From positions 1 to 64,000 of the forward strand of contig JAIRTL010000034.1 of assembly GCA_031254915.1 (NCBI GenBank): DNA of 64,000 nt. Direction: 5' to 3'. Positions 33,256-37,889 of this stretch are shown here, piece by piece. Position 1 is the stretch's first letter, and every line of letters starts with the position of its first letter. A model generated the notes under the pieces. It did no database searches. It saw nothing but the letters and a program-made list of their open reading frames with translations, and was not told where the DNA came from. Source of the DNA: Planctomycetota bacterium (lineage in GTDB: Bacteria > Planctomycetota > SZUA-567). The translations under genes were made by a program, and so were the position numbers.

Positions 33256-33540
33256 TTACTTCAAAAGGATATCGGCCAAATTGACCATGCGTAAAAGGTG
33301 AGTGACTTTGTCCGATGCGTTGACGACGCGCAGCGTCTTCCCCTTTTCGTGAAGACGCTGGTATACGGCGAAGATGGATCCCATCGCCATCGAGCTGATC
33401 ATCCTCGTGCCGCCAAGATCGAGAACGAGTTCGTTGAAGTCCTCCTTCTCGCAGACGGTATTGAGGTAGTTCGCAAAGGTATCCGACACCGGTCCCGAGA
33501 TTTCCGGGAATTTCGAACCTATTTCGAGAACGAGATCCAT
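33256..33540 (-). CDS. STAS-domain anti-sigma factor antagonist
   Basis: 94 residues; ATG at 33540 just after GGAGGGGG. The fold is a single STAS domain: ISGPVSDTFANYLNTVCEKE, then FNELVLDLGGTRMISSMAMG (Ser at the usual phosphorylation position after the D-L-G strand), then HEKGKTLRVVNASDKVTHLL and MVNLADILLK. Proteins like SpoIIAA switch a partner by Ser phosphorylation, but no kinase or sigma gene is adjacent. It could also sit in a stressosome-type or motility pathway. Confidence 0.85.
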   Translation of the reverse strand: MDLVLEIGSKFPEISGPVSDTFANYLNTVCEKEDFNELVLDLGGTRMISSMAMGSIFAVYQRLHEKGKTLRVVNASDKVTHLLRMVNLADILLK

Positions 33541-33923
33541 GCCCCCTCCATCCTGGCCATGCGTTGGCCACGCAAAACGAATTTCGACCGGCGCCGCGGC
33601 GAAGTGGACAACCGCATCCGAATATAGGGAGGAACCCGCGCCGGTCAAGCGGGAAACACCCTTTGAATGCAACAGCATTACAAAATACACTGCGGGAAAT
33701 CAAATAAAAAATACGTTTTTCGTCAGTCCCACATTCTTGCTTCCTCTGATTTACAATGAAATTACAGGTAATTGGACGACACGCCGCAGGGACATGACGC
33801 TATCGCAACCGATTGATCGAAATCGTCGCCTTGCCCGGCATGTCACGCATTTTTATCCAAAATATTGCCTTTTCCCTCGGATCAATTCCTGGTTTTCGTC
33901 CGATGCCACACGAATTTTTGACA
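33541..33923. other. AT-rich stretch without a gene
   Basis: Upstream of the STAS gene; probably holds its promoter on the minus strand. No good open frame, terminator or known element was seen before repeat A starts at 33924. Confidence 0.5.
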
Positions 33924-34053
33924 GTATAAACTGGGCTCGGTCCGAAATTGTGAAAACGGGGAATGGCGGTTGCCCTGTTCCACATCCGTTTCCCTTGGCC
34001 ATTTCATGGCCGCGCCCAGTCGAGGAAATCACAACTCCGGACCGTGAACGGCA
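33924..34053 (-). repeat. Dispersed repeat A, short form
   Basis: 130 bp, inverted relative to the 4 kb copies. Contains TGTTCCACATCCGTTTCCC, the palindrome GGCCATTTCATGGCC, and ACTCCGGACCGTGAACGGC. The 115-bp middle block of the long form is absent. Confidence 0.85.
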
Positions 34054-34124
34054 TACTAAAGAGGCTCGGCGATCCGCAACCGACTCGATTTCGATATTTT
34101 TATCGCGATTATCCAAGTTCACTG

Positions 34125-34287
34125 TTGCGCTTTCGCGACAGCCATGGTATAATTCACCGGCAGTCGCGCATAATTATGTGCATTGCTCGTTCCTGTCGAA
34201 GCCCAGCCTTCGACGAGGGTGAAGTATATGCGCTCGCAAAAAGCGGTTTTTATGCGGTGGACGCCCGGATCCCGGGCGTTTTTATTT
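34125..34287 (+). promoter_or_regulatory. Promoter plus structured leader ending in a terminator, upstream of oadA
   Basis: TTGCGC (34125-34130), 17-base spacer and a perfect TATAAT (34148-34153) define a strong promoter. The predicted transcript then has a hairpin GTCGAAG-6-CTTCGAC (34195-34214), a small AAAAAGCGGTTTTT hairpin, and a full terminator ACGCCCGG / CCGGGCGT with a T-rich tail (34261-34287). oadA starts 80 bases later with no second promoter visible. This is the layout of an attenuator or riboswitch controlling the decarboxylase operon, or of a separate small RNA about 125 bases long. A 37-codon frame from 34176 also runs through it. I do not recognise a known class. Confidence 0.7.
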
Positions 34288-34366
34288 AGTAGGAAACGCG
34301 GTGTTCTGTTCCGGTTTTCGTTGCGATCTTTTCGCACATGTCGGCACTTTCCACAGGAGGTACTTT

Positions 34367-35749
34367 ATGGCCAAGGTGATGTTCACCGAAACAGTATTGC
34401 GGGACGCCAACCAGTCTCTTATCGCAACACGCATGCCGTTCTCCAAGTTCGAGCCCACGCTCAAGGACTTGGACGACGCGGGATATTACTCCCTTGAATG
34501 CTGGGGCGGCGCGACCTTCGACTCGTGCCTCCGCTACCTGGACGAGGATCCGTGGGAAAGGCTCCGGAAGATCAAGGCGGCGTGCAAGAAGACGAAGCTC
34601 CAGATGCTTCTCCGCGGCCAGAACCTCCTCGGCTACAAACACTATCCCGACGACGTGGTGCGCACCTTCGTCGACCGTTCGATCGACAACGGCATCGACG
34701 TCATCCGCATCTTCGACGCCCTCAACGACCTTCGCAACCTCGAGGTTTCCGTCAAGGAAACGCTCAAGCGCGGCGGCGTCGCCCAGGTCGCGATCTCCTA
34801 CACGACGAGCCCGGTCCATAACATCGAAGCCTACGTCAGGCAGATCAAGGAAATCGAGAACATGGGCGCGACCGCGCTCTGCATCAAGGACATGGCCGGC
34901 GTCATGAGCCCGAAGGAAGCCTACGATCTCGTCAAGGGCATCAAGGAGAACAGCAAACTCCAACTCCACGTCCATACCCACTGCACCACCGGTCTCGCCT
35001 TCATGACCTACCTCAAGTCGGTCGAAGCCGGCGCCGACGTCATCGACGCCGCGATCTCCTGCTTCTCCGGCGGCACCTCGCAGCCGGCCACGGAAACGCT
35101 CGTCTACGCCCTCAAGCAGTTCGGCTACGAAGTGAACATCGACATGGCGATCCTCAAGAAGATCAACGACTTCTACAAGCCGATCCGCGCCGGGTTCCTC
35201 AAGGACGGCACCTTGAACCCGCTCGTCATGGCGACGGACGCCGACGCCCTCAACTACCAGATCCCCGGCGGCATGCTGTCGAACCTCGTCTCGCAGCTCA
35301 CCGCCGCCAACAAGCTGGACAAGCTCGGCGAAGTGCTCGAGGAAACGCCCCGCGTCCGCAAGGACATGGGCTACCCGCCGCTCGTCACCCCGCTGTCGCA
35401 GATGGTCGGCGTCCAGGCCGCGAACAACGTCCTTTCGGGCGAACGCTACAAGACCGTCTCCAAGGAAATCACCGCCTACCTGCGGGGCGAATACGGCCAT
35501 CCCCCGGGGCCGATCGACCCCGACTTCCAGAAGAAGGTCCTCGGCGACGAAAATCCGAACACCGGCCGCTACGCCGAAACGCTCGCGCCCGGCATGGACC
35601 AGGGCAAGAAGGACGCCGGTCCGCACGCCAGGAACGTCGACGACGTCCTCAGCTATATCGTGTTCCCGCAGATCGCGGAGAAGTTCTTCGAGGCCCGCGA
35701 AAAGCGGGAAGAGAACAAGGTCAAGTACAAAATCGAAAAGGCGGGCTAA
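34367..35749 (+). CDS. oadA: Oxaloacetate decarboxylase alpha (carboxyltransferase) subunit
   Basis: 460 residues; ATG at 34367 with AGGAGG six bases upstream. A pyruvate carboxylase/OadA-type TIM barrel: FTETVLRDANQSLIATRM, the active-site LECWGGATFDSCLRYL, ALCIKDMAGVM (Lys about 175, the carboxylated Lys in relatives) and the metal ligands LHVHTHCTTGLAFM. The C-terminal PYC/OADA conserved region is present, but the biotin carrier domain found at the end of classic OadA is missing and is encoded separately two genes later. It moves the carboxyl group from oxaloacetate to biotin. Confidence 0.94.
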   Translation: MAKVMFTETVLRDANQSLIATRMPFSKFEPTLKDLDDAGYYSLECWGGATFDSCLRYLDEDPWERLRKIKAACKKTKLQMLLRGQNLLGYKHYPDDVVRTFVDRSIDNGIDVIRIFDALNDLRNLEVSVKETLKRGGVAQVAISYTTSPVHNIEAYVRQIKEIENMGATALCIKDMAGVMSPKEAYDLVKGIKENSKLQLHVHTHCTTGLAFMTYLKSVEAGADVIDAAISCFSGGTSQPATETLVYALKQFGYEVNIDMAILKKINDFYKPIRAGFLKDGTLNPLVMATDADALNYQIPGGMLSNLVSQLTAANKLDKLGEVLEETPRVRKDMGYPPLVTPLSQMVGVQAANNVLSGERYKTVSKEITAYLRGEYGHPPGPIDPDFQKKVLGDENPNTGRYAETLAPGMDQGKKDAGPHARNVDDVLSYIVFPQIAEKFFEAREKREENKVKYKIEKAG

Positions 35750-35752
35750 GCC

Positions 35753-36121
35753 ATGACGAATCCACTGTCCAACATTTCCCTTGGAGTGGTCGACTCGTTC
35801 GGTATATCGCTCCTCGGCTTCGCCATCGTGTTCATGGTCCTGATCGTGCTCCTGGTCGTCATCAGGATTCTCCGCTCCGCAGTGGAAAGCTTCGAGGCGT
35901 CCAAGGCCGCTCCGGCGGCCGCGGCCGCGGTCCCCGCTCCGGCGGCGGCTTTGACGGCCGCGAAGGACCCGAACATGGTTCCCGCGAAAGGATCCCTCGG
36001 GGACATCAAACTCCACGACGTCGACGACAAGACGGCGGCGCTGCTTATGGCCATTGTCGCCGACGAGATGCAGGCGCCTTTGAACGAACTGCGATTCCTC
36101 TCCATCCGTGAGAAAAAGTAG
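35753..36121 (+). CDS. oadG: Oxaloacetate decarboxylase gamma-like subunit
   Basis: 122 residues, three bases after oadA. One N-terminal membrane helix (SLLGFAIVFMVLIVLLVVIR, about 19-38), an Ala/Pro-rich linker, and a C-terminal soluble part (DKTAALLMAIVADEMQAPLN) as in the larger OadG/MmdD-type proteins. It anchors the carboxyltransferase to the beta subunit. Assignment rests on topology, the conserved GISLLGFAIVF pattern, and position. Confidence 0.85.
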   Translation: MTNPLSNISLGVVDSFGISLLGFAIVFMVLIVLLVVIRILRSAVESFEASKAAPAAAAAVPAPAAALTAAKDPNMVPAKGSLGDIKLHDVDDKTAALLMAIVADEMQAPLNELRFLSIREKK

Positions 36122-36134
36122 GAGATCGACAACC

Positions 36135-36512
36135 ATGAAATACAACGTGACTCTCAACAACAAGGTCTACGAGGTGGAAGTGGAACGCGGCGACGCCATT
36201 CTCGTGAACGTCTCCGAAGTCCAGGCTCCGGTTGCGGCCGCGCCCGTCGCCGCCGCAGCCGCGCCGGCTCCCGCCGCGCCCGCCGCCCAGTCCCTCCAGG
36301 CCGAACCGGTCGCGTCCCCGATGCCCGGCACTATCCTCAAGGTGAACGTCAACGCCGGCGACATGGTGAAGGCCGGCCAGGTGCTGATGATTCTCGAAGC
36401 CATGAAGATGGAAAACGATATTCCGGCCCCTCACGACGGCAAGGTGGTCCAGGTCCTGGTCTCCAAGGGCAGCACGGTCGACACCGGCGCGCCATTGCTG
36501 ACCCTGGCGTAA
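36135..36512 (+). CDS. Biotin carrier subunit of the decarboxylase
   Basis: 125 residues; ATG at 36135 with AGGAG ten bases upstream. N-terminal MKYNVTLNNKVYEVEVERGD, an Ala/Pro linker, then a biotinyl domain (VASPMPGTILKVNVNAGDMV) with the biotinylated Lys in EAMKMEND (about Lys90). Equivalent to MmdC/GcdC. It shuttles carboxybiotin between the alpha and beta subunits. Confidence 0.94.
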   Translation: MKYNVTLNNKVYEVEVERGDAILVNVSEVQAPVAAAPVAAAAAPAPAAPAAQSLQAEPVASPMPGTILKVNVNAGDMVKAGQVLMILEAMKMENDIPAPHDGKVVQVLVSKGSTVDTGAPLLTLA

Positions 36513-36527
36513 GGGGGGAGCGAATCG

Positions 36528-37733
36528 ATGGATATCGGCAATATCATATCAAAACTCGCGCAGGAATCGGGTTTCGCCAACCTGTTCCTGCACTGGGAGA
36601 CGCCGGTGATGATCATCATCGCCTGCGTGCTCCTCTATCTCGCGATCGTCAAAAAGTTCGAGCCGCTCCTGCTCGTCGGCATCGCCTTCGGCATGCTCCT
36701 GTCCAACCTGCCCTTCAACGGCATGATGAACATGGAGCTGTTCCAGGGCGACCCGAAAACAATCGACTACATGAGGATTCTCCATGAGGGCGGTCTTCTC
36801 GACATCCTCTATCTCGGCGTCAAGCTCGGCATCTACCCCTGCCTCATCTTCATGGGCGTGGGCGCGATGACCGACTTCGGGCCGATGCTGTCCCGCCCGT
36901 CCTCGATGATCCTCGGCGCAGCGGCGCAACTGGGCGTCTACTGCGCCTTCATGTTGGCGCTCGGCCTCGGCTTCAACACCAACGAAGCCGCCTCGATCGG
37001 CATCATCGGCGGCGCCGACGGCCCGACCGCGATCTTCCTCACCGCGAAGCTCGCGCCGCACCTTCTCGGCCCCATCGCCATCGCGGCCTATTCGTACATG
37101 GCGCTCATCCCCCTCATCCAGCCGCCCATCATGCGCGCGCTGACGACGGAAAAAGAGCGCAAGACCATCATGAACCAGGACCTCCCCGTCTCCAAGTCGA
37201 CGAAGATCATCTTCCCGATCGCGGTGACGATCTTCATCGTCCTCGTCCTGCCTTCGGTCGCCCCGCTCATCGGCTGCCTGATGCTGGGCAACCTGTTCAA
37301 GGAGTGCATGGTGACGGACCGCCTGTCCGACACCGCGCAGAATGCGCTCATGAACATCGTCACGATCTTCCTCGCCCTGACGGTCGGCGCCACCTCGGTC
37401 GGCCATCTTCAGGGTCCGGACGGCACGAACATCGGCTTCCTGTCGCTTGGAACCGTCAAGATCATCGTCCTCGGCCTTTTTGCCTTCTCGTTCTCCACCG
37501 TGGGCGGCCTCATCTTCGGCAAGATCATGTACAGGCTTACCGGCGGCAAGGTCAACCCGCTCATCGGATCGGCCGGCGTCTCCGCCGTTCCCATGGCGGC
37601 GCGCGTCTCGCAGGTCGAGGGACAGAGGGCGAATCCATCCAACTTCCTCCTGATGCACGCCATGGGCCCGAACGTGGCCGGCGTCATCGGATCGGCGGTC
37701 GCGGCCGGCTTCCTGCTGGCTGTTTTCGGCTAA
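36528..37733 (+). CDS. oadB: Na+-translocating decarboxylase beta subunit
   Basis: 401 residues with about nine to eleven membrane helices. Family blocks GVGAMTDFGPMLSRPSSMIL, GIIGGADGPTAIFLTAKLAP (the conserved GGADGPT ion-site segment), and ATSVGHLQGPDGTNIGFLSL are all present. It decarboxylates carboxybiotin and pumps Na+ out of the cell. It closes the operon alpha-gamma-biotin carrier-beta, as in OAD, methylmalonyl-CoA or glutaconyl-CoA decarboxylases; the alpha subunit decides for oxaloacetate/pyruvate type. Confidence 0.95.
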   Translation: MDIGNIISKLAQESGFANLFLHWETPVMIIIACVLLYLAIVKKFEPLLLVGIAFGMLLSNLPFNGMMNMELFQGDPKTIDYMRILHEGGLLDILYLGVKLGIYPCLIFMGVGAMTDFGPMLSRPSSMILGAAAQLGVYCAFMLALGLGFNTNEAASIGIIGGADGPTAIFLTAKLAPHLLGPIAIAAYSYMALIPLIQPPIMRALTTEKERKTIMNQDLPVSKSTKIIFPIAVTIFIVLVLPSVAPLIGCLMLGNLFKECMVTDRLSDTAQNALMNIVTIFLALTVGATSVGHLQGPDGTNIGFLSLGTVKIIVLGLFAFSFSTVGGLIFGKIMYRLTGGKVNPLIGSAGVSAVPMAARVSQVEGQRANPSNFLLMHAMGPNVAGVIGSAVAAGFLLAVFG

Positions 37734-37859: not shown

Positions 37860-37889
37860 CCGCCCCGGCAAGCCGGGGCGGTTTTTTTT
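37860..37889 (+). terminator. Terminator of the decarboxylase operon
   Basis: CCGCCCCGGC / GCCGGGGCGG stem, two-base loop, eight T. Confidence 0.95.

Follow-up and report, generated by a model that had tools for sequence, protein, structure and literature searches.

The window analysed here, by which we mean the whole 64-kb stretch of DNA, is part of a metagenome-assembled genome of 2.75 Mb in 137 contigs (G000), from an uncultured Planctomycetota bacterium, and contains an operon with the gene order oadA, oadG, a biotin carrier gene and oadB, as assigned by Pfam, all on the + strand. The first gene, oadA (34367-35749; PYC_OADA and HMGL-like domains), corresponds to the oxaloacetate decarboxylase alpha chain, a carboxyltransferase, and is followed by oadG (gamma, 35753-36121; OAD_gamma), the biotin carrier gene (start at 36108 or 36132, end at 36512; Biotin_lipoyl) and oadB (36528-37733; OAD_beta), with a terminator after oadB at 37860-37881. 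The domains of all four genes bear out the assignment, made in an earlier note on this DNA, of a Na+-pumping decarboxylase operon. The upstream neighbour of the oadA leader is a STAS-domain gene on the - strand (33256-33690), and because this gene is divergent, the + strand terminator that precedes oadA does not belong to the 3' end of a gene further upstream. A 108-aa ORF across the leader (33963-34289) was rejected as a gene, as it has no Pfam domain and no third-position GC bias, and its initial portion belongs to a dispersed repeat.

This repeat (33926-34055) is sharply bounded, about 129 bp long and present in about 80 copies in the genome. The 40 copies read are 80-92% identical, and none was found in 59 relatives. 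The repeat starts with TATAC and ends with GTATA, and its consensus has a branched predicted fold (-59.3 kcal/mol for 135 nt); in its termini and branched consensus fold it resembles ERIC or MITE elements.

Upstream of oadA we identified an extended -10 promoter on the + strand (34125-34153), in which TTGCGC (34125-34130) is separated by a 17-nt spacer from TATAAT (34148-34153), the latter with a TG extension. This is the only TGnTATAAT on the + strand of the window, and by a simple sigma-70 score the promoter ranks third among all + strand positions of the window. It had been described as near-ideal, which overstates what is a good extended -10 promoter, as the -35 matches the consensus at only 3 of 6 positions; because of this poor -35, a consensus promoter scan passed over the site. 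From the -10, we infer that oad transcription starts near 34160. The proposal that this promoter serves the operon was open to challenge by a separate oadA promoter in 34288-34366; no sigma-70-type promoter of comparable strength is present in 34284-34366, where the best score is 3.9, against 12.4 at 34125-34153. Since no other promoter is visible between the terminator and oadA, expression of the operon probably depends on read-through of the leader terminator. An imperfect inverted repeat, CGCGACAGCC ... GGCAGTCGCG (9/10; 34134-34168), straddles the -10 and is a possible operator, with weaker evidence (P 0.0075 for this centre, 0.05 for any position in the 81 bases) than the element at 34085-34109 described below.

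The terminator lies about 105 nt downstream of the promoter, on the + strand at 34259-34283, and consists of GGACGCCCGG-ATC-CCGGGCGTTT, with the stem at 34259-34281, followed by TTATTT. It is one of just 7 strong sites of terminator type in the 64 kb, counting both strands, in agreement with the earlier description of a full terminator before oadA. The predicted leader RNA (34160-34283, + strand) would end in this terminator and measure about 124 nt, counted from the start placed by the -10, and 83 nt separate the terminator end (about 34283) from the oadA ATG (34367); the values first proposed were about 125 and 80 bases. An intrinsic terminator is thus contained in the leader between the promoter and the first gene, and oadA has no sigma-70-type promoter of its own after it, both of which characterise attenuator leaders. 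The same unit, with its promoter, structured body and strong terminator, is self-contained, and could instead be a gene in its own right for a small RNA of about 124 nt, with the start of oadA lying at an unrecognised site. We regard this as unlikely: no oadA promoter is visible downstream, the RNA has no homologue in relatives, and the upstream element that is common with pckG suggests that the promoter serves the oad operon.

The leader had also been credited with hairpins. The full leader does have a fold with z = -2.7, but the terminator accounts for much of this value, and once it is removed the fold is only slightly above chance (z -1.6 to -2.0; shuffle P 0.035-0.085). Two leader folds are predicted at near-equal energy (-51.3 and -51.2 kcal/mol), and at lengths of 110-118 nt the best fold pairs the 5' end of the leader with the 5' arm of the terminator, a possible antiterminator. 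Both predictions would suit a riboswitch or regulated attenuator, in which the choice between two folds, and hence between antitermination and termination, is made by a protein or by a ligand, the latter being Na+ or an intermediate of the PEP-oxaloacetate node. However, the terminator is kept in both equal-energy folds, and no antiterminator was found beyond chance, with shuffled leaders engaging the terminator arm equally (P 0.11 with the start at 34155 and 0.83 with it at 34160). The suggestion of an attenuator fits the promoter-leader-terminator unit and the lack of a separate oadA promoter.

A search of the leader against Rfam 15, at the gathering score and at E <= 10, gave only chance matches far below threshold, so that the leader belongs to no catalogued leader RNA family, T-box included. 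Neither the leader nor the whole genome matches the covariance model of the Na+-I riboswitch (RF03071), a family relevant here because Na+ was one of the candidate ligands put forward. The 6S RNA model (RF00013) has no match at the leader, and a 6S identity was rejected, as the real 6S of this genome lies elsewhere (C115:18857-19038). The sole Rfam match in the 64-kb window is to int-alpA RNA (RF02996), at 1001-1068 on the - strand (37.5 bits against a cut-off of 35.8).

A DNA search (Blast) for the leader among the 59 relatives found it in its own genome only. A covariance model of the leader, which is built on a single sequence and would miss strongly diverged relatives, returned no homologue at credible E-values in 16 family and 392 Planctomycetota genomes, and nothing beyond chance in 55 oadA loci, mostly from Clostridia. 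The covariance search in relatives that had been recommended thus uncovered no homologue of the leader structure in the 16 family and 392 phylum genomes, nor a conserved aptamer fold in related leaders, which any new riboswitch should display together with compensatory changes. Of the two outcomes named beforehand as counting against the proposal, the lack of structural conservation is therefore seen, and the separate oadA promoter is not. With no conserved fold, no Rfam match and no antiterminator better than in shuffled leaders, the riboswitch reading of the earlier note is not upheld.

In the five family relatives with oadA, pckG lies directly upstream of it, with a short, unrelated spacer that has its own hairpin; no resemblance to the oadA leader was seen in the leaders before pckG in relatives. 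The pckG-oadA spacer of the relative G005 (L008 2822-3000) carries long nested inverted repeats, GTATTCCCGTC ... GACGGGAATAC, which enclose two hairpins, unlike the spacers of other relatives. In the one genome of the same genus that was covered, neither gene was found. In the genome studied here, pckG (PEP carboxykinase) is located on another contig (C63) and not beside oadA. This separation, along with the dispersed repeat nearby at 33926-34055 and the failure to find the leader in any relative, would fit a relic of rearrangement, in which pckG and oadA were parted, the promoter is new or captured, and neither leader nor terminator is maintained by selection. Such a history appears rather unlikely, as a strong terminator that served no purpose should not persist on an essential route to oadA, and an upstream element is kept at exact register before both the oadA and the pckG promoters.

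This element, TCGATTTCGATATTTTTATCGCGAT (25 nt; 34085-34109, + strand), is identical at 20 of 25 positions to TCGCGATCGACATTTTTTTCGCGAT, which lies upstream of a putative pckG promoter (TACAAT, 338 nt before the gene). Each of the two ends exactly 38 nt before its -10. No dinucleotide shuffle gave as good an element match, either at fixed register (0/5000) or at free register (0/600). The plain similarity of the two upstream regions is not overwhelming alone, since 6 of 545 real 460-nt pieces taken from the window give a local alignment score as high. The only perfect matches to the core of the element, ATTTTTNTCGCGAT, in the 2.75-Mb genome are these two, at oadA and at pckG, and the same is true of CGAYATTTTTWTCG. 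Three one-mismatch matches to ATTTTTNTCGCGAT were found, all inside long reading frames; near matches to CGAYATTTTTWTCG are about three times as common as for its reversed control, and a comparable -10 at the 38-nt spacing followed none of the 16 that were read. The element is absent from the pckG promoters of relatives and is not conserved beyond this species. When up to one mismatch is allowed, ATTTTTNTCGCGAT has 40 and 47 matches in the family genomes G010 and G006, where controls have 7 and 6, respectively, and 5 in its own genome; the abundant matches in G010 and G006 are perhaps a regulatory site or a repeat proper to those genomes.

Within the element is a palindrome, CGATA-TTTT-TATCG, whose centre lies about 60 bp upstream of the inferred start, a position that would suit an activator. 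A CRP/FNR-type position is the position of Class I activator sites. The arrangement here is like that of such sites both in the distance of the palindrome from the start and in that two promoters of one pathway have the site at a fixed spacing. We know of no nameable operator that matches CGAYA-TTTT-TNTCG, the form of the oadA and pckG element.

A further, weak likeness is found between the oadA and pckG leaders, where GGGTG, TATGCGC, AGCGGTTTT(T)ATG and TGGAC succeed one another alike, with TATGCGC placed 73 and 67 nt after the -10. The shared motif is followed by a strong hairpin in both leaders, and by a T-run at oadA only. About 240-185 bases before pckG, the pckG leader on contig C63 contains an 18-pair perfect or near-perfect hairpin, CTTTTAGAGGAAATCGGGC ... 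GCCCGATTTCCTCTAAAG, with no T-run after it. The motif was first spotted by eye and the statistics came afterwards; its P against shuffles is 0.01-0.09, varying with gap settings, and its score is equalled by 24-129 of 1006 real pieces, such that we treat it as a weak lead only. Alignment of the two leaders was rejected, being weak and dependent on gap settings. In the family genomes, the pattern TATGCGCN{0,25}GCGGTTTT matched, apart from the oadA and pckG leaders, only sites without leader-like context.

The shared motif keeps a mechanism at the level of RNA possible but unproven. It would favour a regulated attenuator, as would the two folds of equal energy and the engagement of the terminator 5' arm described above, but its modest statistics and the lack of any homologue or Rfam match argue the other way, and we consider regulated attenuation rather unlikely. 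That the two leaders are diverged copies of one new RNA, which would sense the PEP-oxaloacetate node and set the transcription of both genes in this lineage, strikes us as very improbable. A further alternative is ribosome-coupled attenuation, in which a short frame from the ATG at 34252 would be translated across the terminator and prevent its formation. In the oadA leader and the pckG leader alike, GCGGTTTT(T) is followed by an ATG, and the reading frame of the ATG at 34252 crosses the terminator and enters oadA (ORF 34183-34497), but the oadA leader has no good ribosome-binding site, the GC3 of the frames is 0.48-0.61 against 0.67-0.91 in the genes of the window, and there is no run of particular codons; we give this mechanism hardly any credence.

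The best-supported reading, which we put forward tentatively, is that oad and pckG are co-regulated at their promoters and that the leader is a species-specific and probably passive attenuator. The extended -10 promoter at 34125-34153 would drive the oad operon and be the main point of its control, with a putative DNA-binding regulator, for which an activator suits the position, recognising the element at 34085-34109. The same putative regulator would control pckG, so that the two enzymes, PEP carboxykinase and oxaloacetate decarboxylase, would be turned on and off as a pair; the adjacency of pckG and oadA in the five family relatives counts in favour of this co-regulation. The transcript would then meet the leader terminator. 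Some of it would stop there, yielding a short RNA (about 124 nt), and the remainder would continue into oadA; the attenuator, specific to this species and lacking a conserved fold that binds a ligand, would reduce expression by a constant proportion. What the analysis shows directly is the sequences of promoter and terminator, the shared element with its spacing, and the absence of both a second sigma-70-like promoter and any homologue; the regulator and its sign, the read-through and the passive nature of the attenuation are what we infer. Against a passive attenuator, it can be said that a strong terminator would be an expensive arrangement if read-through were purely passive.

The locus invites comparison with several known systems. 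The Na+-I riboswitch (DUF1646 motif) controls the oxaloacetate decarboxylase gene pycB in Acetivibrio cellulolyticus (PMC9337991). The oadA leader shares with this family (RF03071), some members of which control oxaloacetate decarboxylase genes, a leader RNA with an intrinsic terminator, but differs in that neither it nor its genome contains a match to the model, and no fold that would exclude its terminator does better than shuffles. Attenuators whose 5' leader contains an intrinsic terminator have the same succession of promoter, leader (here about 124 nt), terminator and operon with no second promoter, whereas the oadA leader has no demonstrated antiterminator, leader peptide or sensor. One predicted fold of the leader is, like 6S RNA, a long closed rod with a side hairpin, but the leader is too short for a 6S RNA and, as noted above, has no RF00013 match in a genome with its own 6S elsewhere.

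The presence of a promoter-terminator leader ahead of a Na+ pump gene does not in itself point to a riboswitch. Should this leader RNA sense a metabolite after all, it would represent a new class, placed at a central branch point of carbon metabolism. If our preferred reading of promoter-level control is right, PEP carboxykinase and the Na+-pumping oxaloacetate decarboxylase, whose genes are adjacent in relatives, would be co-regulated here despite their separation, and the shared promoter element would be the means of this co-regulation in a little-studied lineage of Planctomycetota.
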